A stretch of DNA of 64,000 bases from Pseudomonadota bacterium (GCA_963204835.1 CAUJHJ010000057.1:62001-126000); one strand, 5' to 3'. Positions 35,185 to 51,690 are shown, counted from the stretch's first letter. Program-made: numbers and translations. Notes: a model not told the origin generated them from the letters alone.

Positions 35185-35664
35185 ATGAAGGGCGACGCAA
35201 CGATCATCCGGCACCTCAATGTCGTGCTGAAGAACGAGCTGACGGCGATCAACCAGTACTTCCTGCACGCCCGCATGTTCGGCAACTGGGGGCTTGCCCG
35301 CCTCGAGCATCACGAGAAGGACGAGTCCATCGACGAGATGAAGCACGCGGACCGGCTGGTCCAGCGCATCCTCTTCCTCGAGGGCCTGCCGAACCTGCAG
35401 GACCTCGGCAAGCTGCTGCTCGGCGAGGACGTCAGGGAATGCCTCGAATGCGACCTGAAGCTCGAGGTCGCGGGGCGCGGCGACCTCAAGGCCGCGATCG
35501 CCGATTGCGAGAAGGCGGGCGACTACATATCGCGGGAGATCTTCGAGGACATCCTCGAGTCCGAGGAAGAACACATCGATCATCTCGAGACGCAGCTCGA
35601 CCTCATTGCCCGGGTCGGTTTCGAGAACTACTGCCAGTCGCAGATGGGCGAAGCTGCCCACTGA
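35185..35664 (+). CDS. bfr: Bacterioferritin
   Basis: A 159-residue four-helix ferritin. The ferroxidase ligands E18 and E51, with H54 in EMKHAD, are present, and the haem-ligand methionine is at position 52 as in E. coli Bfr. A second helix pair carries [13 protein letters not shown] with the remaining Glu and His. It stores iron in a 24-mer shell in the cytoplasm. The neighbouring bfd gene encodes its reductant. The purine-rich GGGGCAAGG upstream is a fair ribosome site. Confidence 0.95.
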
Positions 35665-36499: not shown

Positions 36500-39097
36500 T
36501 CAGAACTTGTAGTTCATCCTGAGGTACCAGAGGCCATTGTCGAGGCCGCTGGGCGTCGTCGTCGGGTACTTCGAGCCGACGATGAATGCCCATGGGTTGC
36601 GCGTCGGCTTGGAACCGAGGAGGTTCTCGGCGCCGACCGCGAGCTCGAGGCGTTCCCAGGGCGTCAGGCCCAGTTCGAGGTCGACGGTAACCTGCGATTC
36701 CGCGTGGATCGGCAGGTTGCCGTTGACATGCATCTCCGTGAAGCGCCCGTAGTAGTTGGCGCGCAGCAGGGCGCGCCACGCATCCTCGACATGCGTGAAG
36801 GCGACGTTGCCGCGCCAGTTGGGGTAGTTGTCCTCGAGCTGGGTGACGCGCACCTGGTCGAGCAACTCGTTCGGATCGTTCGGGTCGAACGAGGTGACCT
36901 TCGTCTTGTTGTAATTGACCGCGACGTTCAGGTCGTTGCTGCCGCGCGGGATGAAGCCGAGCGGCATGGACGCCACGAGGTCGATGCCCTTGGTCTCCGA
37001 CGCGAAGTCGTTCGTGAAGAAGCGGAACGAGCTGAAGCCGGCAGCCGACTGGAAGCCCTCGTCGATCAGCGCCTGCTTCTGGGCGGGCGTCAGCGTCTTG
37101 CTCGCCGAGAGGGTCATGCGGTCTTCCATCTCGATGTAGTAGGCATCGAGGGTGATGGTGATCGCGCCGTTGTCGAACACGAGGCCGGCCGCGACGCTCT
37201 TCGACGTCTCGGGCTTGAGCGGCTTGCCGCCGACGATCGCGGCCGTCGGGCTCGTCGGCGGGATCTGGCCCGACTCGACGAGATCGCCGTTGGCGTCGAA
37301 CTCGGTCGTCGTGGTCGAGAAATGCTCCTGGCCGACCGACGGCGCGTGGAAGCCCGTCGCGTAGGTCGAGCGGATCGCGAACGAGTCCGTGAAGTGGTAC
37401 ATGCCCGAGGCCTTGTACGTCGTCTCGCTGCCGACCGTGCCGGAGAAGGCTTCATGCCGGGCCGCGAGGCCGAGCGTCAGCTTCTTCGTCACGTCGGTTT
37501 CCATGTCGATGTAGCCGGAGAACTTGTGCCGGCCGAATGTGCCGGCGATCGTCGGCGAGAATCCCGGGATGGCCTCTTCGCCGATCAGGAAGCCCTGTGA
37601 GCCCAGCACGCCGGACTCGAACGAGGCCGGTTCGCCCGCGACGATCTGGAACTCCTCGTCGTGCCACTCGGCGCCGAAGGCGACATTGACCGGCGAGGCG
37701 AAGGCCGCGACCGCGAGCGGATAGGTCATGTCGACGTTGACCGCGCGCTCGAGCTGGATGCGGTCGCCGACGCGACCGAAGAACGTGGGCGACTGCGAGC
37801 CCATGCTCGGGTTCGGCACGTTGCCGGCGAAGAACGAGATCTTGCTGCGGCCGGCGCTCGCGCTCACGTCATAGGTCATGCCGGGCCCGAACTTGCCGCG
37901 GATGCCGAAGGCGCCCGCGAAGTCCGTGACGTCGCTGCCGAAGCGCGGGCTGTAGCCGCCGGGAAACACTTCGAGGAAGTTGAAGCAGTTCGGGTCCGAG
38001 AACACGCTCGACATGCGCGTGACCTGGTCCGGCGCGCCCACCGCGATCGGATTGTTGACGACGCCGGTGCCGCCGAAGTCGATGCCACCCTGGCAGTTCT
38101 GGCCGTCGTTCGGCGTCATGTCGCCGACGAGAAAGTTGCCGGCGCCGTCCGTGAACACGCCCTGGCGATCGGTCGGGTTGCGATAGAAGAAGTCGCTCTC
38201 GGTCGTGCGCTGCGAGTAGTTCCCGAAGCCGTAGAAGCGCGCGTCCTCGTTGATGTCGGCGCCGAAATTCATGAAGAGCTTGAGGTCGTCCGAGATCTTC
38301 GGGATGCCGAAGTTGGTGGCCGGGTCCGGCACCGCATCCGGATCCACGAGCGGATTGGCCCCCGCCTGCAGCGCCGCCGCATCGGGACGCTGGATCGCAC
38401 GGATCGATTCGTCCTGCTCGTGGAACTCGCCGCTGAAGCGCAGGTAGCCGGACTCGCCGAGCGGCATGCCTGCCGAACCCGCGAGCTGGTAGCGACCGCC
38501 GTCGCCGGCGTAGGTGCTGCCGTACTTGGCCTGAAGGTTCGCACCCTCCGGGTTGTCGTTCAGGATGAAGTTGATGACACCCGCGATCGCGTCCGAGCCG
38601 TACTGCGCGGCGGCGCCATCGCGCAGCACCTGCACCTGCTTCAGGGCGATGGTGGGGATGGAGGAGATATCGGGGCCCTGCGAGCCGTCGGTCTTGCCGC
38701 CCGAGAAGGTCGCGACGTTGGCGCCGCGATGGCGCCGCTTGCCGTTCACGAGCACGAGCACGTGGTCGGGCGACAGGCCGCGCAACGACACTGGGCGCAT
38801 CGAGGTCGGCGTTCCGCTCAGCGGATTGGCGTCGGCGTTGAAGGAGGGCACCGAGTTGCGCAGGACATTGATCATGTCCACGTCGCCCTGCTTGGTGAGC
38901 TTGTCGATCGGAATGACGTCGACCGGAGCGGAGACGTCGGTCGGGGAAACGACGAGGCGTCGTGTACCGGTGACCGTGACCTCCTGGAGGGATGGCGTCT
39001 GCTCCGCGCCGGCCTGCTGGGCTTGCGCCCCTTGGGCGGCGAGGGCGGACATGACCACCCAAACCGCGGATGAAATCGTCGTGGCGACCCTGGACAT
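36500..39097 (-). CDS. TonB-dependent outer-membrane receptor
   Basis: An 865-residue receptor. A signal peptide ends near AQGAQAQQ. The TonB box region VTVTGTRRLV is followed by the plug domain (IDKLTKQGDVDMINVLRNSVP, VLVLVNGKRRHRGA, IAGVINFIL). A long beta-barrel ends in the terminal phenylalanine of LRMNYKF. The start at ATG 39097 has the ribosome site GAGGGG; upstream open frame is discarded. It imports a scarce or large substrate, unknown here. Upstream lies the GTATAC-type palindrome shared with the catabolic genes to the right, so the receptor probably takes up the substrate of that island. It is divergent from a TSUP permease gene. Confidence 0.9.
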   Translation of the reverse strand: MSRVATTISSAVWVVMSALAAQGAQAQQAGAEQTPSLQEVTVTGTRRLVVSPTDVSAPVDVIPIDKLTKQGDVDMINVLRNSVPSFNADANPLSGTPTSMRPVSLRGLSPDHVLVLVNGKRRHRGANVATFSGGKTDGSQGPDISSIPTIALKQVQVLRDGAAAQYGSDAIAGVINFILNDNPEGANLQAKYGSTYAGDGGRYQLAGSAGMPLGESGYLRFSGEFHEQDESIRAIQRPDAAALQAGANPLVDPDAVPDPATNFGIPKISDDLKLFMNFGADINEDARFYGFGNYSQRTTESDFFYRNPTDRQGVFTDGAGNFLVGDMTPNDGQNCQGGIDFGGTGVVNNPIAVGAPDQVTRMSSVFSDPNCFNFLEVFPGGYSPRFGSDVTDFAGAFGIRGKFGPGMTYDVSASAGRSKISFFAGNVPNPSMGSQSPTFFGRVGDRIQLERAVNVDMTYPLAVAAFASPVNVAFGAEWHDEEFQIVAGEPASFESGVLGSQGFLIGEEAIPGFSPTIAGTFGRHKFSGYIDMETDVTKKLTLGLAARHEAFSGTVGSETTYKASGMYHFTDSFAIRSTYATGFHAPSVGQEHFSTTTTEFDANGDLVESGQIPPTSPTAAIVGGKPLKPETSKSVAAGLVFDNGAITITLDAYYIEMEDRMTLSASKTLTPAQKQALIDEGFQSAAGFSSFRFFTNDFASETKGIDLVASMPLGFIPRGSNDLNVAVNYNKTKVTSFDPNDPNELLDQVRVTQLEDNYPNWRGNVAFTHVEDAWRALLRANYYGRFTEMHVNGNLPIHAESQVTVDLELGLTPWERLELAVGAENLLGSKPTRNPWAFIVGSKYPTTTPSGLDNGLWYLRMNYKF

Positions 39098-39190: not shown

Positions 39191-39209
39191 GTATACGGTA
39201 TACTGTATG
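39191..39209. promoter_or_regulatory. GntR-type operator (GTATAC repeats) between receptor and TSUP genes
   Basis: GTATACGGTATAC at 39191–39203 is a 13-bp palindrome around one base. A third half-site follows (GTATACTGTATG, 39198–39209). It is placed to control both divergent genes. The same motif recurs at 46979 and 47793. Confidence 0.65.
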
Positions 39210-39215
39210 TTGTAG

Positions 39216-39983
39216 ATGTCAAGTGGGGGTGGGACGGTGGTTCTGAGCCTGGACCTTGCGCACTGGCCGGCCCTGTTGCTGGGTGCCCTCGCGGTTTTCA
39301 CCGGTTCGTTGATCCAGGCGAGCACGGGTCTCGGCCTCGGCATGATCGCGGCGCCGATCCTGCTGCTGATCGATCCGCGCCTCGTGCCAGGGCCATTGCT
39401 GGTGCTTGCCCTGCTCGTGTCCTCGTTGATCGCCTGGCGGGAGCGCGAGGCCATCGATGTGCGGGGCCTGTCGTACGCGCTGGTGGGCCGGGTGCCGGGC
39501 ACCGTCGTCGCGGGGCTCGCGATTTCCCTCCTGCCGCTAGCGACCTATAGCCTGCTGTTCGGGGCGCTGGTGCTCGGCGCCGTCCTGCTGAGCGCCAGTG
39601 GCTGGCGAGTGCAACCGACGCGACCCAACCTTCTTGTGGCCGGATTCGCGTCCGGTTTCATGGGAACGCTAACGTCGATCGGGGCGCCACCGCTGGCGCT
39701 CGCCTACCAGCACGGCGCTGCGGCGTCGATCCGCGCGACGATGGCGGCCTTCTTCGTGCTCGGCTCGGCATTTTCCCTGGTCGTGCTCGCGCACTTCGGC
39801 CGCTTCAGCGCCACCGAGGGGCTCGCCGCGGCGGTCTTCGTGCCGCCGCTGCTCGCAGGCTTCTGGCTGTCGGGCCGCGTGGTGCCTCGCATCAGCAACC
39901 GGCGCGCACGCCAGGCGGTGCTCGGCCTGTCAGGCCTCTCCGCCACGCTGCTGATCGGGAAAACCCTGCTCGCGGGCGTTTAG
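39216..39983 (+). CDS. Sulfite/anion exporter TauE/SafE (TSUP) family permease
   Basis: A 255-residue membrane protein with about eight segments and the TSUP repeat pattern (FTGSLIQASTGLGLGMIAAP and later FASGFMGTLTSIGAPPLALA). Family members export sulfite, sulfoacetate or other small anions. ATG 39216 is used, but GTG 39237 has the better ribosome site (GGGGG) and keeps the first helix. The operator ends seven bases before this ATG. It is convergent with the GntR gene, overlapping by four bases. A second, unrelated TSUP gene lies at 44209 in the same island. Confidence 0.8.
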   Translation: MSSGGGTVVLSLDLAHWPALLLGALAVFTGSLIQASTGLGLGMIAAPILLLIDPRLVPGPLLVLALLVSSLIAWREREAIDVRGLSYALVGRVPGTVVAGLAISLLPLATYSLLFGALVLGAVLLSASGWRVQPTRPNLLVAGFASGFMGTLTSIGAPPLALAYQHGAAASIRATMAAFFVLGSAFSLVVLAHFGRFSATEGLAAAVFVPPLLAGFWLSGRVVPRISNRRARQAVLGLSGLSATLLIGKTLLAGV

Positions 39984-40666
39984 CCGAGATAGTCGACGTG
40001 CTTCTCGACGTGCTCGGCAAGCCCGAAGGAATGCTCGCGCACGAGTTCCTCAGCGAGGCGTGCGTCGCGCGCCTCGATCGCCTCGATGATGTGCATGTGA
40101 TCGACGATCGAGCGGCTCGCGCGATCGTGCTCGCCGATCGTCTTGGCACGGATGCCCCGCATGTGCAGCAGGGGCACGTCGGCGAGGCGTTGCAGCAGCT
40201 CATTGCCGCTGAGCGCGATGATCGCCTGGTGGAAGCGGATGTTGGTCTCCGAATACTCGTCGATGCGCGCCTGCGGTGCGCTCGGGTCCTGGAAGGTGAC
40301 GAACAGCTTGCGCAATTCGCCGATGTCCGTGTCGCTCGCAACGCGCGTCGCAAGCCGCGCCGCCATGCCCTCGAGCGCCGCCCAGACCTGGATGACCTCG
40401 ATGATTTCGCGCTTGGTCTTGCGCACCACGAAGGCGCCACGCCGCGGGATCGACATGACGAGCCCTTCCTGCTCGAGGCGGGAGAGGGCCTCGCGCACCG
40501 GCGTGCGGCTGACTCCGAGGCTTTCGGCGAGATAGCGCTCGTCGAGCTTCGGCGGTTCGTCGCCGCGATAGATGTCCATGCGGGAGATCGCGTCGCGCAG
40601 CGCGACGTAGACCTTGTCGGTCAGGCCTGGGTTGGCCTTGACCGGGCGGAGCTGGATTGACTGCAT
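39980..40666 (-). CDS. GntR/FCD family transcriptional regulator
   Basis: A 228-residue FadR-subfamily repressor. The winged helix (about residues 15–80) shows DERYLAESLGVSRTPVREAL and the wing IPRRGAFVV. The C-terminal FCD domain (about 90–220) has the acidic/histidine metal-ligand pattern (Asp in RIDEYSE, His in RFHQAI, HMHIIEAI, REHSFGL). Such regulators bind short palindromes and release them on binding a carboxylate effector. ATG 40666 is chosen because it begins the conserved region. It is divergent from the diiron oxygenase gene; the GTATAC half-site lies between them. Confidence 0.88.
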   Translation of the reverse strand: MQSIQLRPVKANPGLTDKVYVALRDAISRMDIYRGDEPPKLDERYLAESLGVSRTPVREALSRLEQEGLVMSIPRRGAFVVRKTKREIIEVIQVWAALEGMAARLATRVASDTDIGELRKLFVTFQDPSAPQARIDEYSETNIRFHQAIIALSGNELLQRLADVPLLHMRGIRAKTIGEHDRASRSIVDHMHIIEAIEARDARLAEELVREHSFGLAEHVEKHVDYLG

Positions 40667-40710
40667 GACTCGAATCCTGACACGAAAGCCCGTTGACGGC
40701 ATTTTGTCCG

Positions 40711-40720
40711 CAGTATACGC
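40711..40720. promoter_or_regulatory. GTATAC half-site in front of the oxygenase operon
   Basis: CAGTATACGC contains one copy of the island motif, within GTCC...GTATAC...GGAC flanking bases. It lies midway between the divergent GntR gene and the oxygenase gene. It is weaker than the full 13-bp sites and may be a low-affinity or differently spaced operator. Confidence 0.4.
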
Positions 40721-40746
40721 TTTGGACGACATCCGGAGGTTGCGCC

Positions 40747-41487
40747 ATGGCCAAATTGCTTGACAAGACTCAATTTCGGGCTGCTCTCAAGGAAGCGATG
40801 CAGGGGCGCGAGGCCAAGGACGCCTCGTTCAGCGTCGCCTGGTCGAGCGGCAAGCTGCAGCGCGAGCACTTCGCGCGCTGGGCCGAGAACCACTTCCATT
40901 ACGTGGGGCCGTTCGCCGATTACCTCGGCTACATCTACGCCAATGCCCCGGACCACGCCACGGAGGCGAAGGACTTCCTGCTGCAGAACATGTACGAGGA
41001 AGAGCTGGCCGACATCCGCCACACCGACCTGCTGATCCGTTTCGCGGAAGCTTGCGGCACCACGCGCGAACGCGTGCAGGACCCGCGCAACATGAATCCC
41101 GTGACCCGCGGCCTGCAGGGCTGGTGCTACGCCACGGCGATGCGCGGCAACTGGGTCGCCGCGACCGCCGCGCTGGTCGTCGGCCTCGAGTCGCAGGTGC
41201 CGGACATCTACCGCCGCCAGTATCCGCCGCTGCTCGAGAAGTACGGCTTCACGGAGGACGAGGCGGAGTTCTTCGAGCTGCATATCACCTCGGATGAAGT
41301 GCACGGCGAGCGCGGCTACGAGATCGTGCTGCGGCATGCCGACACGCCCGAGCTGCAGGAACTGTGCCTCGAGGCCGTGCGCGACGCCGCGGACATGCGC
41401 TTCTCCTACACGAAGGCCCTGTACGACTACTACGTGAAGGATTTCAAGCACGCCGACTCCGAACTCGCCGCGGTCGGCTCCGTCTAG
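40747..41487 (+). CDS. Haem-oxygenase-like diiron oxygenase (HDO; CADD/TenA-fold)
   Basis: A 246-residue all-helical protein. The six iron ligands of the HDO superfamily can be placed: E85 and H92 (E-x6-H), E148 in GLESQ, and H179, D183, H186 (H-x3-D-x2-H in HITSDEVHG). The spacing is almost that of Chlamydia CADD. Thiaminase TenA proteins share the fold but lack this ligand set, so an O2-activating diiron enzyme is the better call. ATG 40747 has the ribosome site CCGGAGG. It is followed by Rieske ferredoxin and reductase genes that could supply electrons. The substrate is unknown, and oxidation, C–C cleavage or N-oxygenation are all known in the superfamily. Confidence 0.82.
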   Translation: MAKLLDKTQFRAALKEAMQGREAKDASFSVAWSSGKLQREHFARWAENHFHYVGPFADYLGYIYANAPDHATEAKDFLLQNMYEEELADIRHTDLLIRFAEACGTTRERVQDPRNMNPVTRGLQGWCYATAMRGNWVAATAALVVGLESQVPDIYRRQYPPLLEKYGFTEDEAEFFELHITSDEVHGERGYEIVLRHADTPELQELCLEAVRDAADMRFSYTKALYDYYVKDFKHADSELAAVGSV

Positions 41488-41494
41488 CCGGGCC

Positions 41495-41854
41495 ATGACC
41501 GACTGGGTCAAGGCCACGGAGCTCGGGCCGCTGCGGGAACGCAAGAAGCTCAAGGTGACGGTCGCGGACCACGAGATCGCGCTGTTCTACATCGACGGCG
41601 GAGTCTACGCGCTGCGCGACATCTGCATCCACAAGCAGAGCCGCCTGTCGCGAGGCCTCGTGTTCAAGGGCAAGGTCATCTGCCCGGGCCACCAGTGGGC
41701 CTTCGACCTGAAGACCGGCTGGACCGACCAGTGGGCGAAGTGCCAGCCGGTCTATCCCGTCAAGGTCGAGGACGAGGCCGTCTATGTACGGCTCGACCCG
41801 CAAGTGCGTGACGCCGAACCGGCGGCGCACGAACGCTTCTGCGAGGCGGGCTGA
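41495..41854 (+). CDS. Rieske [2Fe-2S] ferredoxin
   Basis: A 119-residue protein of the NirD/dioxygenase-ferredoxin type. The Rieske ligands are C44 and H46 (CIH) and C63 and H66 (CPGH), with sixteen residues between H46 and C63. Length is typical of stand-alone Rieske ferredoxins. It starts eight bases after the oxygenase gene and three bases before the reductase GTG, so the three proteins should be made together. It probably carries electrons from the reductase to the diiron oxygenase (inference from order). Confidence 0.88.
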   Translation: MTDWVKATELGPLRERKKLKVTVADHEIALFYIDGGVYALRDICIHKQSRLSRGLVFKGKVICPGHQWAFDLKTGWTDQWAKCQPVYPVKVEDEAVYVRLDPQVRDAEPAAHERFCEAG

Positions 41855-41856
41855 CC

Positions 41857-43428
41857 GTGGCCCGCCAGATGGTGCTGATCGGGGCCGGCCAGACATCCGC
41901 ATCGGCCGCGCGCGCACTGCGCCGCCAGGGCTACGACGGGCGCATCACGATCGTGGGCGATGAGCCGCACGCGCCTTACCAGCGGCCGCCGCTGTCGAAG
42001 GAGTTCCTGCAAGGCACGGCGGATCCGCAGGAACTCTGGTCGGTGCCGCCCGCCTGGTACGCCGAGCACGATGTCACGCTCGAGCTCGGCGCGCGTGCGC
42101 TGCGCATCGACAAGTCGAACCTCGACGTCGTGCTCGAAGACGGGCGCAAGCTCGCCTCGGATGCCGTGCTCATAGCGACGGGCGGCACGCCGCGGCGCTT
42201 CCCGGACGTGAGCGGCGAGCGGATCCTCTACCTGCGCACCCTCGCGGATGCCGGGCGGTTGCGCGAGTACCTGCGGCCCGGGCGTCACCTCGTCATCGTC
42301 GGTGGCGGCTTCATCGGCTCCGAGATCGCGGCATCGGCACGCGCGGCGGGCGCCGACGTGACGCTGCTCGAGGCGATGCTCGCGCCGCTCGAGCGAGTGC
42401 TCGGCGCCGCGATCGGCGCGGTCTGCGGCGCGATCCATGTGGAGAACGGCGTGCGGCTGCGCTGTGGCGTGGCCGTCGAGTCGATCACGGAGACGGCCGC
42501 CGGCGTGGTCGTGCGCGCGCGCGACGGCGAGACCTTCGAGGGCGACGTTGTCGTGATCGGCATCGGCATTGTGCCGAACGACGCGATCGCCAAGGCAAGC
42601 GAGATCACGGTCGGCAACGGCATCCGTGTCGACGAGTTCTGCCGCACGACGGCGCCGGGCATCTACGCCGCGGGCGACGTCGCCAACCATTACCACCCGC
42701 TCTACGACAAGCGCATGCGTGTCGAGCATTTCGACAATGCCTCGCGCCAGGGCGCGGCCGCCGGCCTCAACATGATGGGCGTGCGCACGCGCTACGAGGA
42801 CCCGCACTGGTTCTGGTCGGACCAGTACGAACACAGCTTCCAGTACGCTGGCCATGCGGACTCATGGGACGAGGTCGTGGTGCGCGGCTCGCTCGACCAG
42901 CGGGACTTCGTTGCGTTCTACCTGCAGGGCGGGCGCATCGCCGGCGCCTTCGGCATGAACCGCGGCGGCGACATCATGGTCGTCAAGTCGCTGCTGGCGG
43001 CCAAGGCAACCATCGAGCCGCGCGTGCTGCGCGACGATGCCGCAGACCTCGGCGCGTTGCTCGAAGAGAAGGAGGAGCCGAACGAGGAAGCCGCGGCCAT
43101 CGAGGCCGCGGAGCGCGAGGGAAGCTTCACCCGCGCGGCGCGCAGCGGCCAGGTGCGCGAGGGCAGCGTGCGCCGCTTCGTCGTGCAGGGCACCGAAGTG
43201 GCCATTGCGCGCCTCAACGGCACGGCCTACGCCGTGCACAACCTGTGCACGCACCTGGCCTGCCACTTGTCGTCGGGCAAGGTGGAGCAGGGCGGTCTCA
43301 CTTGCCTGTGCCACGGGTCGATCTTCGACCTCGCGAGCGGCGAACCCATCAACCCGCCCGCCTCGCGCGCGGTGAAGACCTATCCGGTGCGCGAGATCGA
43401 CGGCCATATCTACGTCGCGATCGACTGA
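41857..43428 (+). CDS. FAD-dependent ferredoxin reductase fused to a C-terminal Rieske domain
   Basis: A 523-residue fusion. Residues about 1–400 form a pyridine-nucleotide/putidaredoxin-type reductase: FAD motif VLIGAGQTSASAARAL, RPPLSKEFLQG, NAD motif VIVGGGFIGSEIAAS, and APGIYAAGDVANHY. An acidic linker (EEKEEPNEEAAAIEAAE) leads to a Rieske domain with C464, H466, C483 and H486. Eukaryotic AIFM3 has the reverse order (Rieske first). The gene starts with GTG, two bases after the ferredoxin stop. The fused Rieske may shorten the path from NAD(P)H to the oxygenase. Confidence 0.87.
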   Translation: MARQMVLIGAGQTSASAARALRRQGYDGRITIVGDEPHAPYQRPPLSKEFLQGTADPQELWSVPPAWYAEHDVTLELGARALRIDKSNLDVVLEDGRKLASDAVLIATGGTPRRFPDVSGERILYLRTLADAGRLREYLRPGRHLVIVGGGFIGSEIAASARAAGADVTLLEAMLAPLERVLGAAIGAVCGAIHVENGVRLRCGVAVESITETAAGVVVRARDGETFEGDVVVIGIGIVPNDAIAKASEITVGNGIRVDEFCRTTAPGIYAAGDVANHYHPLYDKRMRVEHFDNASRQGAAAGLNMMGVRTRYEDPHWFWSDQYEHSFQYAGHADSWDEVVVRGSLDQRDFVAFYLQGGRIAGAFGMNRGGDIMVVKSLLAAKATIEPRVLRDDAADLGALLEEKEEPNEEAAAIEAAEREGSFTRAARSGQVREGSVRRFVVQGTEVAIARLNGTAYAVHNLCTHLACHLSSGKVEQGGLTCLCHGSIFDLASGEPINPPASRAVKTYPVREIDGHIYVAID

Positions 43429-43430
43429 CG

Positions 43431-44204
43431 ATGGACCTGCAGCTCGCCGGCAAGCGCGCCCTGGTGCTCGGCTCGAGTTCCGGACTCGGCCGGGCGATCG
43501 CCGCGCAGCTCGCGGCCGAGGGCGCCCGTGTGATCATCGCGGGCCGCGACGAGGCGCGGCTGCGCGCGGCAGGCGAGGCCATGCACGCGGCGGGATGGGT
43601 CCGCGGCGACCTGGCTGTGCGCGACGAGGCGCAGCGCATGGTGAACGAGGCCGCGCAGGCACTCGGCGGCCTCGATATCGCGATCATCAATACCGGGGGT
43701 GGTACGCCGGGGCCGATCGGCCGTTCGAGTCCGCAGGCGCGTGAGCGCGCATGGGAGTCGATGCTGCGCCCCGCGCTCGATGCCGCGGCGGCGTCGACGC
43801 CCTGGCTGCAACAGTCGCAAGCGGGCCGGATGCTGTTCATTACCGCGCGTTCCGTGGTCGAGGCTTCGCCCGATCTCGCCTTGTCATCGGTTTTCCGCAG
43901 CGGCGTCGCGGCGGCCGCGCGCTCGCTCGCGCTCGAGCTCGCGCCGCGGGTGCTCGTCAACGTGATCGTGCCGGGGCAGTTCGACACGCCGGCCTACCAT
44001 CGTTTCCGTGACTGGCTGGCGAAGGATCGCGGCGCGAGCGGGGACGCGGTCGCGGAGGAACATCTCGCCGGCATCCCCGTCGGCCGGCTCGGCCGGGCGG
44101 AGGAGCTCGCCGATGTCGTCACCTTCCTCGCGAGCCCGCGGGCCAGCTTCGTCACCGGCACCGTCGTGCGGGTCGACGGCGGGGCCGTGATCGGCTTCCA
44201 TTGA
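43431..44204 (+). CDS. Short-chain dehydrogenase/reductase, atypical active site
   Basis: A 257-residue SDR fold. The cofactor motif VLGSSSGLGRAIAAQL and IAGRDEARL are present, and the C-terminus ASFVTGTVVRVDGGAV is normal. Where the catalytic Ser...Tyr-x3-Lys should be, the sequence reads ITARSVVEAS then LSSVFRSGVAAAARSLA, so Tyr and Lys are replaced (Ser/Arg). Related beta-ketoacyl-reductase-like SDRs with this change are known, and their activity is unclear. It is last in the rightward oxygenase operon, two bases after the reductase gene, and convergent with the TSUP gene. Confidence 0.83.
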   Translation: MDLQLAGKRALVLGSSSGLGRAIAAQLAAEGARVIIAGRDEARLRAAGEAMHAAGWVRGDLAVRDEAQRMVNEAAQALGGLDIAIINTGGGTPGPIGRSSPQARERAWESMLRPALDAAAASTPWLQQSQAGRMLFITARSVVEASPDLALSSVFRSGVAAAARSLALELAPRVLVNVIVPGQFDTPAYHRFRDWLAKDRGASGDAVAEEHLAGIPVGRLGRAEELADVVTFLASPRASFVTGTVVRVDGGAVIGFH

Positions 44205-44208
44205 CGCG

Positions 44209-44991
44209 CTACTTGAACGCCGAATAGAACATCCGCGCGGCCACGATGAACAGGAAGCCGCCGAACACCAGGCTCAGGTGCCGGCGCGGCAGCCAGTGCG
44301 CGAGGCGCGCGCCGAGCGGTGCGGTCAGCATGGTGGCCGGCGCAATCAGGGCAAAGCCGAGCAGGTTGACGAAGCCGAGGTTGCCCGGCGGCAGGGAAGG
44401 GTGGCTCCAGCCGGCCACGATGAAGCCCACCGTCGCCGGAATGCTGATGGCGAGGCCGAACAGCGACGCGGTGCCCACCGCGCGATGGATGGGTTCGTTG
44501 AGCAGGGTCATGATCGGCACGCTCAGGGTGCCGCCGCCGATGCCCATCATGCTCGACAGCACGCCGATCGAGCCGGGCAGGAGCGGCGTTGCGATGCCGC
44601 CCGGCACCTGCTGGGCGAGTGGGTGGTTGTCGAGTGGCAGCATCATCTTCACCGCGACCAGCAACGCGACCACGGCGAACACCATCGACAGTACGTCGCC
44701 GTGCACGTGGTCGGCGACGACCACTCCGACCAGCGCGCCGAAGAACAGGTAGGGCGCCCAGCGCCTGACGAGCGGCAGGTTGACCGCGTCGCGCTTGTGG
44801 TGCGCGCGGGCGGACGAGATCGAGGTCAGCACGATCGTCGCCTGCGAGGTCGCGACGGCGACGTGCATGCGGATCGCAGGATCGATCTTGAGGATCGACA
44901 GCGCGACCTCGAGCACCGGCACGATCACGATGCCGCCGCCGACCCCGAGGAGCCCCGCGACGATGCCGCCGACGAGCCCCGTCGACAGCAT
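44209..44991 (-). CDS. Sulfite/anion exporter TauE/SafE (TSUP) family permease
   Basis: A 260-residue membrane protein with about eight segments and two GG-rich repeats: GIVAGLLGVGGGIVIVPVL near the N-terminus and SSMMGIGGGTLSVPIMTLL in the middle, the TSUP hallmark. ATG 44991 is used; TTG 45003 would add four residues. It is transcribed behind the aldehyde dehydrogenase gene. TSUP proteins export sulfite or other small oxyanions or sulfonates, so a sulfur-containing intermediate is possible, but no desulfonating enzyme is seen nearby. Confidence 0.85.
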   Translation of the reverse strand: MLSTGLVGGIVAGLLGVGGGIVIVPVLEVALSILKIDPAIRMHVAVATSQATIVLTSISSARAHHKRDAVNLPLVRRWAPYLFFGALVGVVVADHVHGDVLSMVFAVVALLVAVKMMLPLDNHPLAQQVPGGIATPLLPGSIGVLSSMMGIGGGTLSVPIMTLLNEPIHRAVGTASLFGLAISIPATVGFIVAGWSHPSLPPGNLGFVNLLGFALIAPATMLTAPLGARLAHWLPRRHLSLVFGGFLFIVAARMFYSAFK

Positions 44992-45035
44992 GGCGGCGGC
45001 CAAAGTCAGGTATTCGGTGATGATGATGGTTTCCG

Positions 45036-46484
45036 TCAGGTCGCGAGGTAGACGGACTTGGTGCGCGTGTAGAAATCCATCACGCCGTGGCCCGCCTGTT
45101 CCTTGTTGGTCTGGTTGCTCGAATGCTTGAAACCGCCGAACGGCGCGTTGAGCGCGACGCCGCCGGTGGCGCTGTTGACCTTGACGATGCCGGCGTCGAT
45201 GTCCGCGGCGAAGGCGAGCGCGCGGCCCATGTCGCGCGTGACGATCGAGGCGGCGAGCCCGTAGTCCACGGCGTTCGCCTGCGCGATCGCCTCCTCGTAG
45301 CTCGCCGCGCGCGACACGCACACGACCGGGCCGAAGATTTCCTCGCGCGACAGGCGCGAGGAGGGCGGCACGTCGACGAACACGGTCGGGGCCACGAAAT
45401 GGCCTTGCGGCGGCAACGGCGAGTCGAGGTCCTGCGCGCCGCAGGCGACGCGCAGGCCTTCGGCCTTGCCGGCTGCGATCATGTCCTCGACCTTGCGCTG
45501 CTGCGCCTCGCTCGCGAGGGGCCCCATGGTCACCTGCGGATCGAGGCCGTTGCCGAGCCGGTAGGCGCGGGCGCGCGCCACGATCTCGCGCACGACGGCG
45601 TCGTAGATGTCGCCGACCACCAGCACGCGGCTCGTCGCGGTGCAGGCCTGGCCGGTGAGCGAGAAGGCGCCCTGGGCCGCGATCTGCGCGGCGCGGGCCG
45701 GGTCGGCGTCCGCGAGCACCACGCACGGATTCTTGCCGCCCATCTCGAGTTGCAGGCGCTTGTCGGGGCCGGCGGCCTGGTGGATGCGGCGACCCGTCGG
45801 ATAGGAACCCGTGAAGGTGACGGCGCCCACTTTGGCCGATCCGACCAGCGTGTCGCCGACGTCGGCGCCATACCCTTGCACGAGCGCGATCACGCCCGGC
45901 GGCAGGCCGGCTTCGAGCAGCAGTTCGACCATTCGCTGGCCGGCGAGCGGCGTGAGCTCCGAGGGCTTGTAGATGACGCCATTGCCGGTGGCGAGCGCTG
46001 GCCCGATCTTGCGCGAGGGAATCGACACCGGGAAATTCCACGGCGTGATGGCGAGCACGATGCCCACGGGCTCGCGCACCGAATAAGTGACTCCGGCGCC
46101 GCTGTTGGCGAAGGTCTCGCCGAGCGTGCGATGCGCCTCGCTGGCGTACAGCCGGAAGTTGGCCGCCGTGCGGCGCCATTCCTGGGTGGCCGACGCGAGC
46201 ACCTTGCCTTCTTCGCGTGTCAACTCGCGGGCGAGCGCATCGAGCCGCGCGAGGATCAGGTCCGCCGTGCGCTCGAGTACCCGCTGGCGCTGCTCCGCGT
46301 CGGTCGCGGCCCAGGCGCGCCGCGCCCCGTCGACGCCCTCGATCGCGGCAAGTGCGTCGGCGGCCTTGGAGGCAGGGAAGGCGCCGATCAGGTCTGAAGG
46401 GTCGGCCGGGTTGCGGCGTTCGAAGCTGCCGCCATCGAGCGCCGCCTGCCAGCGGCCGCCGATGTAGTTGAGCGGTGCGCTCAT
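45036..46484 (-). CDS. NAD(P)-dependent aldehyde dehydrogenase (alpha-ketoglutarate-semialdehyde type)
   Basis: A 482-residue ALDH. Motifs: PWNFPVSIPSRKIGPALATG, YKPSELTP, FTGSYPTGRRI (cofactor loop), LEMGGKNP with the general-base Glu, and GQACTATSR with the catalytic Cys near residue 285. The last motif resembles 2-oxoglutarate-semialdehyde dehydrogenases. It would oxidise an aldehyde arising in the island pathway to an acid. Its start overlaps the HbpS-like gene by ATGA, and the TSUP gene follows, giving a leftward three-gene operon preceded by a full GTATAC operator. Confidence 0.9.
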   Translation of the reverse strand: MSAPLNYIGGRWQAALDGGSFERRNPADPSDLIGAFPASKAADALAAIEGVDGARRAWAATDAEQRQRVLERTADLILARLDALARELTREEGKVLASATQEWRRTAANFRLYASEAHRTLGETFANSGAGVTYSVREPVGIVLAITPWNFPVSIPSRKIGPALATGNGVIYKPSELTPLAGQRMVELLLEAGLPPGVIALVQGYGADVGDTLVGSAKVGAVTFTGSYPTGRRIHQAAGPDKRLQLEMGGKNPCVVLADADPARAAQIAAQGAFSLTGQACTATSRVLVVGDIYDAVVREIVARARAYRLGNGLDPQVTMGPLASEAQQRKVEDMIAAGKAEGLRVACGAQDLDSPLPPQGHFVAPTVFVDVPPSSRLSREEIFGPVVCVSRAASYEEAIAQANAVDYGLAASIVTRDMGRALAFAADIDAGIVKVNSATGGVALNAPFGGFKHSSNQTNKEQAGHGVMDFYTRTKSVYLAT

Positions 46485-46951
46485 GCCTTGCGCGCTGCGT
46501 CGGGAATGGTGACGGTGCCGCCGCCGGTCTTCTTCATGTGCTCGGCGAACGCGGCGATCGCCGCTTCGCAGACCGCGATGTCCTGCTCGCCATTGCCGCC
46601 GGACACGCCGATGCCGCCGACGACCTTGCCGTCAACGAAGATCGGATAGCCGCCCACGAACACCGTGATGCGCCCGCCGTGCTGGGTGAAGATGCCCCAC
46701 GCCTCCTCGCCGGGGAACGTATTGGTGAAGGTGTGCGTGACCCGCCGGTGCGCGGCCGCCGTGAACGCCTTGTTCTCGGCGATCTGCACGCTTGTCACCT
46801 TGCCCTTGTCAAGGCGGCGCAGCGCGATGGGATAGCCCGCGTCGTCGGCGATGCAGATGACGTGCATGCCGCCGAGTTCCTCGGACTTGCGCTGCGCGGC
46901 ATCGAGCAGCAGCTCGGCGTCGGTGAGGCTCAATACATTCTTGTTGATCAT
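46481..46951 (-). CDS. GlcG/HbpS family protein
   Basis: A 156-residue protein of the haem-degrading/GlcG-HbpS family. It has an N-terminal helix LTDAELLLDAAQRKSEELGG, then CIADDAGYPIALRRLD, AFTAAAHRR, a glycine-rich GGYPIFVDGKVVGGIGVSGG, and EAAIAAF. Members are common as small accessory proteins in catabolic operons and can bind haem or cobalamin-like ligands; the role is unsettled. ATG 46951 has the ribosome site GGGGGA on its strand. The operator at 46979–46991 lies 28 bases upstream, so this gene heads the HbpS–ALDH–TSUP operon. Confidence 0.85.
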   Translation of the reverse strand: MINKNVLSLTDAELLLDAAQRKSEELGGMHVICIADDAGYPIALRRLDKGKVTSVQIAENKAFTAAAHRRVTHTFTNTFPGEEAWGIFTQHGGRITVFVGGYPIFVDGKVVGGIGVSGGNGEQDIAVCEAAIAAFAEHMKKTGGGTVTIPDAARKA

Positions 46952-46978: not shown

Positions 46979-46991
46979 GTATACTGTATAC
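46979..46991. promoter_or_regulatory. GntR-type operator, GTATACTGTATAC
   Basis: A perfect 13-bp palindrome around one base, 28 bases upstream of the HbpS-like start on the minus strand. On that strand it reads GTATACAGTATAC and overlaps possible -10 sequences (TATACA/TATACC), so a bound repressor would block initiation. Confidence 0.68.
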
Positions 46992-47029: not shown

Positions 47030-47743
47030 TCAGGTTTCGTCGACGGGTTCCCCGGCCGCGTTGATGCCCGAGCGCACCTGCTCGCCGACCTTGCGCACGT
47101 GGCGCGAGGCGAGCAGCGCCGCGAGCTCGGCATCGCCGGTGACCACGGCCTGGAGGATGGCGGCGTGTTCCTGCCAGGACTCCATGGCGCGGTCCATTTG
47201 CGCCAAGGCGAACAACCACATCGTGCGCTCGCGCAACGACTTCACGTAGTCGGCGAGGTAACGGTTCTGGCCCGCGTCGGCGAGCAGTTCGTGGAAGCGG
47301 TCGTTGATGCGCAGCAGGCGCTCCCGCGCCGCCGCCCCGGCCGCCTCGTTGCCCTCGACGTACAGTCGCTGCAGCACTTCGCGCGTAGGCCCGTCGCAGC
47401 GCCGCGCGGCATTGCGGGCATTGATGCCCTCGAGTTCCGCGCGCAGTTCGATGACTTCCTGCGCTTCGGCGTCCGACACGAGGCGCACGCGCGCGCCGCG
47501 GCGCGGATTGACCTCGATGAGGCCCTCGACCTGCAGGGCGCGCAGCGCCTCGCGAATCGGATTGCGCGACACCCTGAAGATGTCCGCAAGGTTCGATTCC
47601 GTGAGTCGCTCGCCCGGCTTGAAGCGGCCCTTGAGGATGGCCTCGCGCAAGGACTTCGTCACCGCGTAATGCAACGACTGGTGGGTCGCGCCGATGTTCG
47701 ACCAGCTGTCGTTCCAGTCGTCGAATTCGGCTTTCATCGGCAT
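47030..47743 (-). CDS. GntR/FCD family transcriptional regulator
   Basis: A 237-residue FadR-subfamily regulator, a paralogue of the one at 39980. The winged helix lies near residues 25–90 (LTESNLADIFRVSRNPIREAL, wing PRRGARVRLV). The FCD domain (about 97–225) has RINDRFHELL, SWQEHAAIL and a late histidine in SRHVRKV. ATG 47743 is chosen; an in-frame GTG lies two codons upstream. It is divergent from the permease gene, with a GTATAC half-site 8 bases upstream of its start and a full site 50 bases away, suggesting autoregulation. Confidence 0.88.
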   Translation of the reverse strand: MPMKAEFDDWNDSWSNIGATHQSLHYAVTKSLREAILKGRFKPGERLTESNLADIFRVSRNPIREALRALQVEGLIEVNPRRGARVRLVSDAEAQEVIELRAELEGINARNAARRCDGPTREVLQRLYVEGNEAAGAAARERLLRINDRFHELLADAGQNRYLADYVKSLRERTMWLFALAQMDRAMESWQEHAAILQAVVTGDAELAALLASRHVRKVGEQVRSGINAAGEPVDET

Positions 47744-47750
47744 CGGCACA

Positions 47751-47805
47751 GTATACCGACGTGGAAGGCTCGCTTGATTTCGCGTGCATTCAGTATACTG
47801 TATGC
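47751..47805. promoter_or_regulatory. GTATAC half-site and full operator between GntR and permease genes
   Basis: A half-site GTATACC is at 47751–47757 near the GntR start. The 13-bp GTATACTGTATGC is at 47793–47805, 44 bases before the permease ATG. The full site differs from the perfect palindrome by one base. It fits control of the divergent pair by one or both GntR proteins. Confidence 0.62.
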
Positions 47806-47848: not shown

Positions 47849-49381
47849 ATGGGCGCGACTTCGGGTCTTACGGCGGCGCACTGGATGTATCTGGCAGGCG
47901 TACTGGTCATCGTCTTCACGATGGTCCTGCGCGCCAACGTCGTGGTGCCCTCGATCATCTCGACCTTCCTTGTCGTGTTCGCCTTCAGCGGAAGTCCGAT
48001 CGCCGCGCTCGGCAGCATCTTCAACGCGAGCTTCATCGCCGCGAAGGAATTGTTCAATATCTTCCTCGTGATCGCGCTGGTCACGGCGCTGCTCAATTCG
48101 CTGAAGGACCTGCGGTCCGACGTGCGCATGGTCGAGCCTTTCCGCCTCGTCATGAAAAACGGCCATGTTTCCTTCCTCGTGCTGGCGTTCGCGACCTACG
48201 CGGTCTCGCTGTTTTTCTGGCCGACGCCCGCCGTGCCGCTCGTGTCGGCCGTGCTGCTGCCAGCGGCGATCGCTGCGGGCCTGCCGCCGCTCGCGGGCGC
48301 CGCGGTCATGGCCATCGCAGGGCAGGGCATGGCGCTGTCCTCGGACTACATCGTGGGCGTGGCGCCGGGCATCAGCGCCAAGGCCTCGGGCGCACTGGCG
48401 TCGGTGGTGGCGGATCGTGCGCTCGCACTGTCGCTTGTCACGGGCGTGATCGCGCTGTCGCTCGTCTACCTGTCGTTGCGCAAGGGATTCACGGCGCCGG
48501 ACGAGCGGCTGCTCGCCGAGTGGCAGAAACGTGCCACCAACGGCAAGTCCGCCGAGTTCGCCGATGCCGGCACCATGCACAAGCCGGAGATCGCGCGCGG
48601 CACGAGCCGCGACCACCTGCTGCTGACCGAGGCCGATGTCGAGCGCGAGTTGCATGACCTCGAGCGTTCCCGCGTCAAGTGGTCGCGCCTGTTCGCCGTG
48701 CTGACCCCGCTCGCCTTCCTCGTGGTCGTTGCCCTGATGGTGCTGCCGATGTTCATGCCGGGCCTGCCGTCCATCAAGGGAGGAGCCGCCGCCTCGCTCG
48801 TCGGCGGCATGGCGAGCCTGCTGATGATCTGTGCCACGCTCGCGATGCACGGCCCGCACCGCATGCTCGATGCGAGTGCCGACCATGTGACCGAGGGCTT
48901 CGTGTTCGCTTTCAGGGCGATGGGATCAGTGTTGCCGATTGCCGGCTTTTTCTTCCTCGGTGCGAGCGAGACCGCTGCGGGCATCCTCGGGGTGCCGATC
49001 GAGCGCGCGCCGAGCCTGCTGTTCGAACTCGTGCACAGCGCGCAGGCCTGGATTCCCTCGAGTGAGTATCCGGTCGCCTTCGGCGTGCTGCTCGTGGGCA
49101 TGATCACGGGCGTCGATGGCTCGGGCTTCGCCGGTCTGCCGCTTACCGGCGCGCTCTCGGGTGCCCTCGCCCCGGTGTCGGGCGCCGATGCCGCGACGCT
49201 CGCGGCGATCGGCCAGATGGGTTCGGTGTGGACCGGCGGCGGTACGCTGATCCCGTGGTCGTCGCTGATCGCGATCGCCTGTTTCGCGCGCGTGCCGGTG
49301 CAGGACGCCGTGCGGGTCATGCTGGTGCCGGTCGTCACGGGGCTGGTTGCCTCGACCTTCTTCGCGGTTGCAGTATTCTGA
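47849..49381 (+). CDS. Ion-transporter-superfamily permease (organic acid/Na+ type)
   Basis: A 510-residue membrane protein with about 12–13 segments and a cytosolic, charged central loop (about 210–265). Two similar glycine-rich halves are visible: AAVMAIAGQGMALSSDYIVG in the first and ITGVDGSGFAGLPLTGALSG in the second. This is the layout of the IT superfamily (dicarboxylate, gluconate and Na+/H+ carriers). The exact family is not recognised. Its operator and position suggest uptake of the island substrate across the inner membrane. Ribosome site GGGGGG. The gamma-glutamyltransferase-like gene starts two bases after its stop. Confidence 0.75.
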   Translation: MGATSGLTAAHWMYLAGVLVIVFTMVLRANVVVPSIISTFLVVFAFSGSPIAALGSIFNASFIAAKELFNIFLVIALVTALLNSLKDLRSDVRMVEPFRLVMKNGHVSFLVLAFATYAVSLFFWPTPAVPLVSAVLLPAAIAAGLPPLAGAAVMAIAGQGMALSSDYIVGVAPGISAKASGALASVVADRALALSLVTGVIALSLVYLSLRKGFTAPDERLLAEWQKRATNGKSAEFADAGTMHKPEIARGTSRDHLLLTEADVERELHDLERSRVKWSRLFAVLTPLAFLVVVALMVLPMFMPGLPSIKGGAAASLVGGMASLLMICATLAMHGPHRMLDASADHVTEGFVFAFRAMGSVLPIAGFFFLGASETAAGILGVPIERAPSLLFELVHSAQAWIPSSEYPVAFGVLLVGMITGVDGSGFAGLPLTGALSGALAPVSGADAATLAAIGQMGSVWTGGGTLIPWSSLIAIACFARVPVQDAVRVMLVPVVTGLVASTFFAVAVF

Positions 49382-49383
49382 AC

Positions 49384-50859
49384 ATGACAGGCAGCAGCTG
49401 GCGCCTGTCCGGCGCAGTCCCGGTCATGGCCGAGCAGTGCCAGGTGCGCGGTCCGCGCGGCGCGGTGGCGGCGGCCGCGCCGGCCGCGGCGCTGGTCGGC
49501 GCCGAAGCCTTGCGTGCCGGCGGCAACGCCTACGATGCCGTGCTCGCCGCGGCGCTCGCCGAAACGGTGCTGCTCCCGCCGAAGTGCGGCCTCGCGGGCG
49601 ACCTCGTGGCGCTCGCCTGGCCGCGCGATTGCGCGGAGCCGCAGGCGCTGCTCGCCATCGGCGGGGCTCCCGCTGGACTGGCGGAGCTCGCGATTCACGG
49701 CGGTATGCAGGCGACAGGACCCGGTTCGGTCGGCGTGCCAGGTGCACCCGCGGGCTACCTCGCCCTTGCCGCTCGCGGTCGCCTGCCGCTCGCGCAACTG
49801 GCCGCGCCCGCGATCGACATGGCGCGGCGCGGATTCTGCTGGTCCCGCATTTGTTCGTCGCTGGCCGAGGAATCGGCTGAACTCGTCGCGCGCCACAATG
49901 CAGCGGGCACGCGCTACTACCCGGGCGGGTGCGTCATTGCGCCCGGCACGGTGATGGTGCTGCCGGGTCTCGCCGCGGCGCTCGAAGCCCTGGTCGCGGA
50001 TCGCGAGGGCTTTCTCGAGGGCGCCGTTGGTGAGGCGATCCTCGAGTGCGTGCGTCGCCACGGCGGCGTGCTGGCGCGCGAGGATTTCTCGCGCCCGGTG
50101 CATGCGGAATGGGCCAAGGCCACCGCCGGCCGCCTCGGCGGGCGCAAGCTCTTCGTCACGCCGGCACCGACGCACGGTGCCGCGCTGCTGCGCGCCCTCG
50201 AATCGATGACGGAGCTGACGCAGGTTCCGGTCGCCGCCGTGCATGCGCCCGTCTCCGCCGCGGTCGACTGGCAGAAGGCTTCGCTGTCGGACCCCGGCGG
50301 TACATCGATGGTGTCAGCCGTCGACGGGGAGGGCACGATGGTGTCGGTCGTGCATTCCAATTCATTCCCGCGTTTCGGCAGCGGTTTGATCGTGGAAAAA
50401 TACGACCTCATCCTCGCCAATCGCGCCGGCCGCGGGTTCAGCAGCGAGCCGGGCCACCCGAATTTTCCGCGCGCGGGCCGCCGTCCCGCGACGACTCTGC
50501 ACGCATGGTCGGTCGCGGGGCCCGGCGCAATGCGCCTGCAGGGCGCGACCCCGGGAGGAGCGAACCAGATGCCTTGGAACGCGCAGACGCTCGCGCGCCT
50601 GCTGGGTGGCGAAACGGACATCGGCCGGCTCATCGCGGCACCGCGCTGGGACGCGTCCGATGCAGCCGGCTCGCTTGTGCTCGAGGAAGGATTCGAGGCG
50701 GCGGAAATCGACCTGTTGCGGTCCTCGTCGCAGAGCTGTCAGGTCATCGGTCGCTGGGGCCTGCACTCGGCGATGCAGATCATCGCGGACGATCCTGAGC
50801 GCGGCCTGCTCGCCGCGGCGGCCGATCCTCGCACGGTGGGCGCCGCGCTGGCTTTCTGA
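49384..50859 (+). CDS. Gamma-glutamyltransferase-like Ntn hydrolase, no signal peptide
   Basis: A 491-residue protein of the gamma-glutamyltranspeptidase superfamily. The N-terminal half has GAEALRAGGNAYDAVLAAAL and PGSVGVPGAPAGYLALA. The self-cleavage/nucleophile region is DPGGTSMVSAVDGEG near residue 305, where Thr would become the new N-terminus. The strictly usual TTHxSVVD is altered to GTSMVSAVD. Unlike true periplasmic GGTs it has no signal peptide, so it should act in the cytoplasm. With the permease in one operon it may hydrolyse a gamma-glutamyl or other amide of the imported substrate (inference). Confidence 0.8.
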   Translation: MTGSSWRLSGAVPVMAEQCQVRGPRGAVAAAAPAAALVGAEALRAGGNAYDAVLAAALAETVLLPPKCGLAGDLVALAWPRDCAEPQALLAIGGAPAGLAELAIHGGMQATGPGSVGVPGAPAGYLALAARGRLPLAQLAAPAIDMARRGFCWSRICSSLAEESAELVARHNAAGTRYYPGGCVIAPGTVMVLPGLAAALEALVADREGFLEGAVGEAILECVRRHGGVLAREDFSRPVHAEWAKATAGRLGGRKLFVTPAPTHGAALLRALESMTELTQVPVAAVHAPVSAAVDWQKASLSDPGGTSMVSAVDGEGTMVSVVHSNSFPRFGSGLIVEKYDLILANRAGRGFSSEPGHPNFPRAGRRPATTLHAWSVAGPGAMRLQGATPGGANQMPWNAQTLARLLGGETDIGRLIAAPRWDASDAAGSLVLEEGFEAAEIDLLRSSSQSCQVIGRWGLHSAMQIIADDPERGLLAAAADPRTVGAALAF

Positions 50860-50868
50860 CGCCGCTCC

Positions 50869-51690
50869 TCAGAGCGTGCCCACCGTACAGTGCGACGTGA
50901 GTGCACGCAGCGTCGCGACCAGGCTCTTCGGAGTGAGGCTGCCGGTGCGCGGATTGTCGGGCAGGGGATGGGAGGCGAGCGTCACCTCGAAATCCGCCGC
51001 GGCGGACTGCACGCGCACGAACTGCATGTTGCGGTGGGCGGCCGGGTCGGCCCAGATCTCGACCCGCGTGCGCTCCGCGCCGATGCCCGCGAGGCTCAGG
51101 GTTGCCGCGACATTGGCGTTGGCGGGAAAGGCCGCCGCTGCCTCACGCGCATTGCCGGAAAAGACGAGCCGCGCGGCGTCGAGGCCGTCCACTGAAATGC
51201 CGTGCTCGACCAGCCAGGGCGCGCCGGCGAGGCTGCGCGGCGGCTTGTGCGTGACCAGCGTGACCGACTCGATCTCGCCTTCCGCGGCGGCCTTCAAGGC
51301 ATCGAGGCCAAGGATGCCGCCGGACGGCACGATGATGCGTGCACCCGTGGACCGCGCCCGCTCGACAAGCCCGGTGCGCGTCAGCAGGGCACCCGAGCTC
51401 ATGGTCACGAAAATCCGTCCTGCCTCGATCGCGGGCCACGCGATCTCGTCATACACCGCGGCCGGGGCGCATTCGACGACGACCTCGCAGGCTGCCGCGA
51501 GCCCCGCGAGGGTCGTGACCGCGGGACGCGAGCGCAGTGACGCGGCGCGCTGCCGCGTCCGCTCGCCGTCGCGCGCGGCCACCGCACGCAGCTCGAGTCC
51601 CGGCAGTCCCGCATCGAGCGCCTGAGCCGCCGCCAAGCCGATCGCGCCGAGGCCGCCGATACCGACGCGCAGGTTCGCTTTCGCTGTCAT
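50869..51690 (-). CDS. L-aspartate dehydrogenase-like NAD(P) oxidoreductase
   Basis: A 273-residue protein with the DUF108/aspartate dehydrogenase layout: Rossmann motif VGIGGLGAIGLAAAQAL, EVVVECAPAAVYDEI, SSGALLTRTGLV, VPSGGILGLDALKAA, and FPANANVAATLSLAGIG. The last two segments form the catalytic core of aspartate dehydrogenases. It could oxidatively deaminate aspartate or a related amino acid to a keto acid and ammonia. It is convergent with the GGT-like gene and closes the catabolic island. The open frame continues upstream but the conserved region begins at ATG 51690. Confidence 0.83.
   Translation of the reverse strand: MTAKANLRVGIGGLGAIGLAAAQALDAGLPGLELRAVAARDGERTRQRAASLRSRPAVTTLAGLAAACEVVVECAPAAVYDEIAWPAIEAGRIFVTMSSGALLTRTGLVERARSTGARIIVPSGGILGLDALKAAAEGEIESVTLVTHKPPRSLAGAPWLVEHGISVDGLDAARLVFSGNAREAAAAFPANANVAATLSLAGIGAERTRVEIWADPAAHRNMQFVRVQSAAADFEVTLASHPLPDNPRTGSLTPKSLVATLRALTSHCTVGTL

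Follow-up and report, generated by a model that had tools for sequence, protein, structure and literature searches.

A haem-oxygenase-like diiron protein encoded with a Rieske electron-transfer chain: a candidate oxygenase system of aerobic catabolism

A stretch of 64,000 nucleotides from a Pseudomonadota bacterium (here the window) encodes a protein with the predicted fold and the ligand set of the haem-oxygenase-like diiron oxidases and oxygenases (HDOs), and its gene is directly followed by genes for a Rieske ferredoxin and for an FAD reductase that carries a second Rieske domain (Table 1). The HDO gene and ferredoxin genes are linked in relatives from several phyla, and comparison of these loci indicates that the protein is probably the terminal oxygenase of a system that runs from NAD(P)H through an FAD reductase and Rieske proteins to the HDO and that opens an aerobic catabolic pathway.

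Table 1. Genes and operator-like sites of the HDO cluster, with coordinates counted from the first nucleotide of the window
Feature	Coordinates	Strand	Basis or remark
TonB-dependent receptor	36500..39097	-	Recognised from sequence, not family search; kept at the locus in proteobacterial relatives
Double GTATAC site, operator-like	39191..39203		TonB receptor/TauE gap
TauE/SafE-type permease	39216..39983	+	Pfam
GntR-FCD regulator	39980..40732 (start may be 40666)	-	Family searches; divergent from HDO operon
GTATAC site, operator-like	40713..40718		34 bases upstream of HDO start
HDO terminal oxidase/oxygenase, 246 aa	40747..41487	+	Six ligands (see text), Pfam, alignment, predicted fold
Rieske-type [2Fe-2S] ferredoxin (RieskeA), 119 aa	41495..41854	+	Pfam; nearest solved relative naphthalene dioxygenase ferredoxin
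FAD ferredoxin reductase fused C-terminally to a second Rieske domain (RieskeB, residues 426-510)	41857..43428	+	Pfam, NCBIfam, solved relatives; putidaredoxin/biphenyl dioxygenase reductase type
Short-chain dehydrogenase (SDR), fourth gene of the operon	43431..44204	+	Pfam; shared by the loci L003, L007 and L009
Second TauE/SafE-type permease	44209..45039 (start approximate)	-	Pfam
Aldehyde dehydrogenase (ALDH)	45036..46484	-	Pfam, NCBIfam
HbpS/GlcG-like (DUF336) protein	46481..46951	-	HDO-linked in almost every locus of sufficient length
Double GTATAC site, operator-like	46979..46991		Upstream of GlcG-ALDH genes
Second GntR-type regulator	47030..47743	-	Relatives' loci
Two GTATAC sites, operator-like	47751..47798		Second GntR gene/transporter gap
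Membrane transporter without Pfam family match	47849..49381	+	Judged from relatives; kept across the loci
Gamma-glutamyltransferase-family (GGT) Ntn hydrolase	49426..50859 (start may be 49384)	+	Family search, relatives' loci
L-aspartate dehydrogenase-type imine reductase/dehydrogenase	50869..51690	-	Orthologue in L004 above NCBIfam cut-off

The diiron protein and its distribution

The initial annotation had described a 246-residue enzyme with six HDO ligands, and this description is borne out. All six ligands (E85, H92, E148, H179, D183 and H186) are present, they are among 91 positions that do not vary in 29 aligned homologues from at least four phyla, and they line up with those of CADD and NePabS, the solved structures nearest to the protein by both sequence and fold. 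The protein matches the Pfam family Haem_oxygenas_2 (7e-33) and also TENA_THI-4. An AlphaFold2 model from 24 sequences has a pLDDT of 91.3, and its best match among solved structures is CADD (Z 28.6, rmsd 1.5 Å over 213 residues, 24% identity), followed by PqqC (27.5), with UndA at 25.5 and HrmI at 25.4; Foldseek agrees, and the closest matches are metal-bound CADD structures. The superposition on known HDOs that had been proposed as a check thus recovers an HDO fold, and we conclude that, by its ligands and its modelled structure, the protein is a member of the HDOs.

Relatives were sought with one genome per species, from which 24 were fetched (62-94% identity) from Pseudomonadota, Actinomycetota, one Acidobacteriota MAG and Niallia (Bacillota); six more come from Cupriavidus and Caballeronia plasmid records. 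Within the window's bacterial family the gene is present in two of 200 genomes, the remaining matches there being to a paralogue of 35-38% identity, and across the phylum it is present at 65% identity or more in four of 398 genomes. Phyla are intermixed in the HDO tree, and this, together with the sporadic occurrence, is what would be expected of an accessory function spread by horizontal transfer. Another HDO-type gene of the window's genome, with 36% identity to the first, adjoins a gene for a UbiD-type decarboxylase (L038:8179-10504, contig 50 of G000), as it does in all 19 loci examined from the window's family (L038, L048-L065); this conserved pair may represent another unexplored HDO pathway.

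Electron-carrier genes beside the HDO gene

The genes for the HDO, the Rieske ferredoxin and the reductase-Rieske fusion lie as they were annotated, with exact coordinates, frames and gaps: seven bases separate the HDO and RieskeA genes and two separate RieskeA from the reductase, with a further two between the reductase and SDR genes. RieskeA matches the Pfam Rieske family (5e-15), the reductase protein matches Pyr_redox_2 (7e-64), Reductase_C (3e-26) and Rieske (2e-18), and the CxH...CxxH motifs are intact in both Rieske domains. These are the Rieske ferredoxin and FAD reductase components of three-component ring-hydroxylating oxygenases, and in the window the HDO gene occupies the place of the ring-hydroxylating alpha subunit. 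No alpha subunit of the Ring_hydroxyl_A family (PF00848) was found in the window's genome, the assembly of which is 92% complete. The genome encodes one other Rieske oxygenase, of the VanA_C type, adjoining an MFS transporter gene (L032:1486-2667, contig 48 of G000), and this enzyme could share the window reductase.

Linkage of the HDO gene to ferredoxin genes extends well beyond the window. A Rieske gene lies within about 1.5 kb of it in 17 of 29 relatives and a plant-type ferredoxin gene in eight; 24 have either (one has both), and the remaining relatives have ferredoxins within about 5 kb. Of 49 control loci, which encode further members of this Pfam family, not one has a ferredoxin gene of the Rieske or plant type within about 1.5 kb. 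Fisher's test gives p ~1e-15, an overstated value because many of the loci and genomes, those of the controls included, are related; at the level of gene order the linkage is far above chance and the contrast with the controls is clear. The HDO-Rieske-reductase order, for which a genome search had been suggested, is conserved in many genomes, and the initial inference that the three proteins cooperate gains strong support from this comparison (24/29 versus 0/49).

We distinguish two arrangements of these loci. Form A, which includes the window, comprises the HDO, RieskeA, the reductase and the second Rieske protein, RieskeB. In each of the 17 relatives of this type, which belong to the Pseudomonadota and Actinomycetota and include the Acidobacteriota MAG, RieskeA is encoded directly after the HDO (second after it in L010). 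The position of RieskeB is more variable: it is fused to the C-terminus of the reductase in the window and in L003, L005, L006 and L007, it is separate and immediately 3' of the reductase gene in L026, and it follows the ALDH gene in other actinobacteria and in the Acidobacteriota MAG. A reductase with a second Rieske domain is an accurate account of the window, but actinobacterial relatives encode RieskeB as a ferredoxin on its own, so that the system is properly one of two Rieske proteins. A fusion of RieskeA to the reductase in mycobacteria was rejected, RieskeA being a separate frame.

Form B has two plant-type [2Fe-2S] ferredoxins on either side of a small protein, c12, and a BenC/AntC-like reductase is also encoded in six of these loci (L021, L027-L031). 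In the HDO tree, one side of a branch consists of Form B, and the loci of Form A form one group with the hybrid locus L010 (91/99). The hybrid (L010:991-2423) encodes the HDO, then a plant-type ferredoxin, then RieskeA, and it is possible that it represents an intermediate in a redox-partner swap. The c12 protein is conserved and about 100 residues long (for example L022:11179-11475, L018:1896-2213, L024:2169-2465 and L027:8400-8720). Searches of Pfam and NCBIfam with it gave no matches, and its model, although confident (pLDDT 93), has no PDB match with an E-value of 0.001 or below, and Z nowhere exceeds 3.8; our guess is that c12 could be an effector or scaffold protein.

The case for a dedicated donor of the HDO rests most strongly on the exchange of one ferredoxin type for another beside the same enzyme. 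Judged by gene content, the HDO gene has a conserved and adjacent, predicted NAD(P)H-linked iron-sulphur partner of the MboAB kind.

Regulatory sites, neighbouring genes and the proposed pathway

The hexamer GTATAC, which was first spotted by eye and counted afterwards, occurs nine times in the window against an expectation of 0.92, and none of 100 shuffles reaches nine. Seven of the nine sites are in four intergenic regions: between the TonB receptor and TauE genes, between the GntR and HDO genes, upstream of the GlcG-ALDH genes, and between the second GntR gene and the transporter gene. Nearly all GntR-bearing relatives have GTATAC within 300 bases upstream of the HDO gene (in L023 it is upstream of a transporter gene that precedes the HDO gene), and no PucR-bearing relative has it within that distance. 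GTATAC is thus a well-supported putative operator, and its sites would place the HDO, the Rieske chain, the ALDH, the GlcG-like protein, the transporter, the GGT-type hydrolase and the TonB receptor in one regulon. Scans for sigma-70 promoters and terminators gave nothing over chance.

In both forms, the neighbours conserved best alongside the HDO are the ALDH, the HbpS/GlcG-like protein, the Pfam-less transporter and GntR; the transporter has neither Pfam nor NCBIfam matches in the relatives tested. ALDH identity among relatives is mostly 43-57%, which is below the conservation of the HDO and weighs against the proposed pathway. Assignment of the substrate through the ALDH failed, as its best NCBIfam match, 2,5-dioxovalerate dehydrogenase, reaches 488 bits against a cut-off of 750 and its PDB neighbours are generic. 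Accessory genes that depend on lineage encode a GGT-family hydrolase, a creatininase-family hydrolase (L020), esterases, RidA, aspartate dehydrogenase and an ornithine-cyclodeaminase-like protein. RidA and imine dehydrogenases or reductases are mutually exclusive across the HDO loci, and this exclusion, which follows lineages, suggests that an imine is formed in the pathway. In the Niallia cluster the creatininase-family gene (L020:7409-8200) lies beside the transporter and HDO genes, which hints at an intermediate that is a lactam or an amide. A gene recognised from its sequence as bacterioferritin-like (35185-35664) lies some 5 kb upstream of the HDO cluster in the window, and L003 has a relative of this gene in the corresponding position.

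We infer electron flow, O2 chemistry and a catabolic role for the system as follows. NAD(P)H would reduce the FAD reductase, from which single electrons would pass onward through the fused Rieske domain, the separate Rieske ferredoxin, or both, to re-reduce the HDO diiron site and so permit O2 activation and turnover on a small-molecule substrate. The HDO would carry out the first oxygenation of the pathway, the product or a later intermediate would be an aldehyde taken by the ALDH, and nitrogen removal would be completed by the HbpS/GlcG-like protein, the GGT-type hydrolase and an imine-handling enzyme, namely aspartate dehydrogenase in the window and RidA or the ornithine-cyclodeaminase-like protein in relatives. 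GntR-FCD regulators acting at the GTATAC sites would control uptake (TonB receptor, transporters) and all of the cluster genes. The lineage-patterned accessory genes (RidA versus aspartate dehydrogenase or ornithine cyclodeaminase) point, tentatively, to a nitrogen-containing carboxylate as the substrate.

Alternative readings and known systems

The closeness of CADD and NePabS in sequence and fold could be taken to mean that the HDO is itself a p-aminobenzoate synthase of the self-sacrificing CADD/PabS type, or some other HDO that makes a cofactor. However, the sacrificial tyrosine and lysine of those synthases (Tyr27/25 and Lys152/159; PMC11965152, PMC13108848) are replaced by Ser29 (serine in 28 sequences and threonine in one) and by an invariant Gln158, and Tyr141 of CADD by an invariant Leu147. 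The NCBIfam CADD model TIGR04305 scores 87.4 bits against a cut-off of 200, and the neighbouring genes are catabolic rather than folate genes. With both sacrificial residues missing we rejected a CADD-type identity, and a cofactor-making role of any such kind seems exceedingly improbable. The TENA_THI-4 match and the second place of PqqC by fold would similarly fit a cofactor-free, PqqC/TenA-like oxidase or hydrolase that uses no metal, which we regard as very unlikely given that none of the six dimetal ligands varies among the 29 sequences, that the NCBIfam PqqC model TIGR02111 gives 51.2 bits against a cut-off of 240, and that cofactor-free enzymes need no ferredoxin.

Other explanations accept the diiron enzyme and differ over its partners or its pathway. 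The Rieske ferredoxin and reductase might serve another (Rieske) oxygenase elsewhere, with the adjacency of the HDO being regulatory only; RieskeA does resemble the ferredoxins of ring-hydroxylating dioxygenases, and the VanA_C-type enzyme on another contig is a candidate recipient. This is unlikely, as the adjacency of HDO and RieskeA is kept across phyla and gene orders, no ring-hydroxylating alpha subunit belongs to the conserved cluster, none of the PF00848 family was found in the 92%-complete genome, and a different ferredoxin type fills the same place in other lineages. It is about equally doubtful that the Rieske chain is correctly assigned but the pathway makes or detoxifies a metabolite. 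The known roles of HDOs, about a dozen of which have been characterised, are mostly biosynthetic (2026 review, PMC13108848), but substrate-uptake genes, GntR or PucR regulators and ALDH genes are found at the loci, the conserved set is without PKS/NRPS or ligase genes, and occurrence is sporadic in both the family and the phylum. We therefore favour the HDO as the terminal oxygenase of a catabolic system.

Other HDOs run mostly on chemical reductants or unspecified donors, a point against the proposed Rieske-fed system. The claim that a dedicated redox chain for an HDO would be new holds in part: such a partner is already known from mangotoxin biosynthesis, in which MboA works with the FAD/[2Fe-2S] reductase MboB, possibly the first dedicated HDO-redox pair, and this shows that an HDO can have a dedicated NADH-FAD-[2Fe-2S] partner (PMC13185094), but the Rieske chain does appear to be new within the literature covered. 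Like the system proposed here, MboA/MboB is an HDO with a co-encoded NADH-dependent iron-sulphur partner; MboB is a single FAD/[2Fe-2S] reductase without a Rieske protein in a biosynthetic setting, whereas the window has a Rieske ferredoxin and a reductase-Rieske fusion in a catabolic-looking cluster. It is the BenC-like reductase of Form B that resembles the MboB arrangement. CADD and NePabS share the fold and six ligands of the window HDO, which differs from them in its neighbourhood and its redox chain as well as in the sacrificial residues. UndA, BesC, HrmI and PolF share the fold (Z 20-25) and diiron ligand set, and the 2026 review, according to which the HDOs studied need no protein effector, mentions no Rieske partner for these or other HDOs (PMC13108848).

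Biphenyl and naphthalene dioxygenases, which are three-component Rieske systems, have the same types of Rieske ferredoxin and FAD reductase as the window, although their terminal component is a Rieske/mononuclear-iron alpha subunit rather than a diiron HDO. A Rieske ferredoxin, T4moC, does serve a diiron oxygenase in systems of the toluene 4-monooxygenase (T4MO) type, and T4moC is a weak sequence match to RieskeA; that hydroxylase is ferritin-like and has an effector protein, and the HDO fold is unrelated to it. We found no published account of this HDO cluster in the full-text literature, in which coverage of subscription papers was incomplete and bioRxiv excluded. An HDO with a dedicated partner is known in principle; what appears new within the literature covered is that the chain is of the Rieske type, that the setting is catabolic and that the partner has been swapped. 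On balance we lean towards this being the first HDO to receive its electrons from a Rieske ferredoxin chain and the first to open a catabolic pathway, isofunctional over at least four phyla with its partner swapped between the Rieske and plant types.

Re-reduction between turnovers is a practical bottleneck for HDOs, and this family offers two kinds of physiological chain for one enzyme. It has tens of near-orthologues, some of them in cultured strains (Novosphingobium, Mycolicibacterium and Cupriavidus metallidurans CH34), and the locus gives a clear genetic route to the substrate. If the proposed function is correct, it would carry HDOs beyond natural-product synthesis into the catabolism of carbon and nitrogen and would make this HDO a natural counterpart of the Rieske and ferritin-like multicomponent oxygenases.
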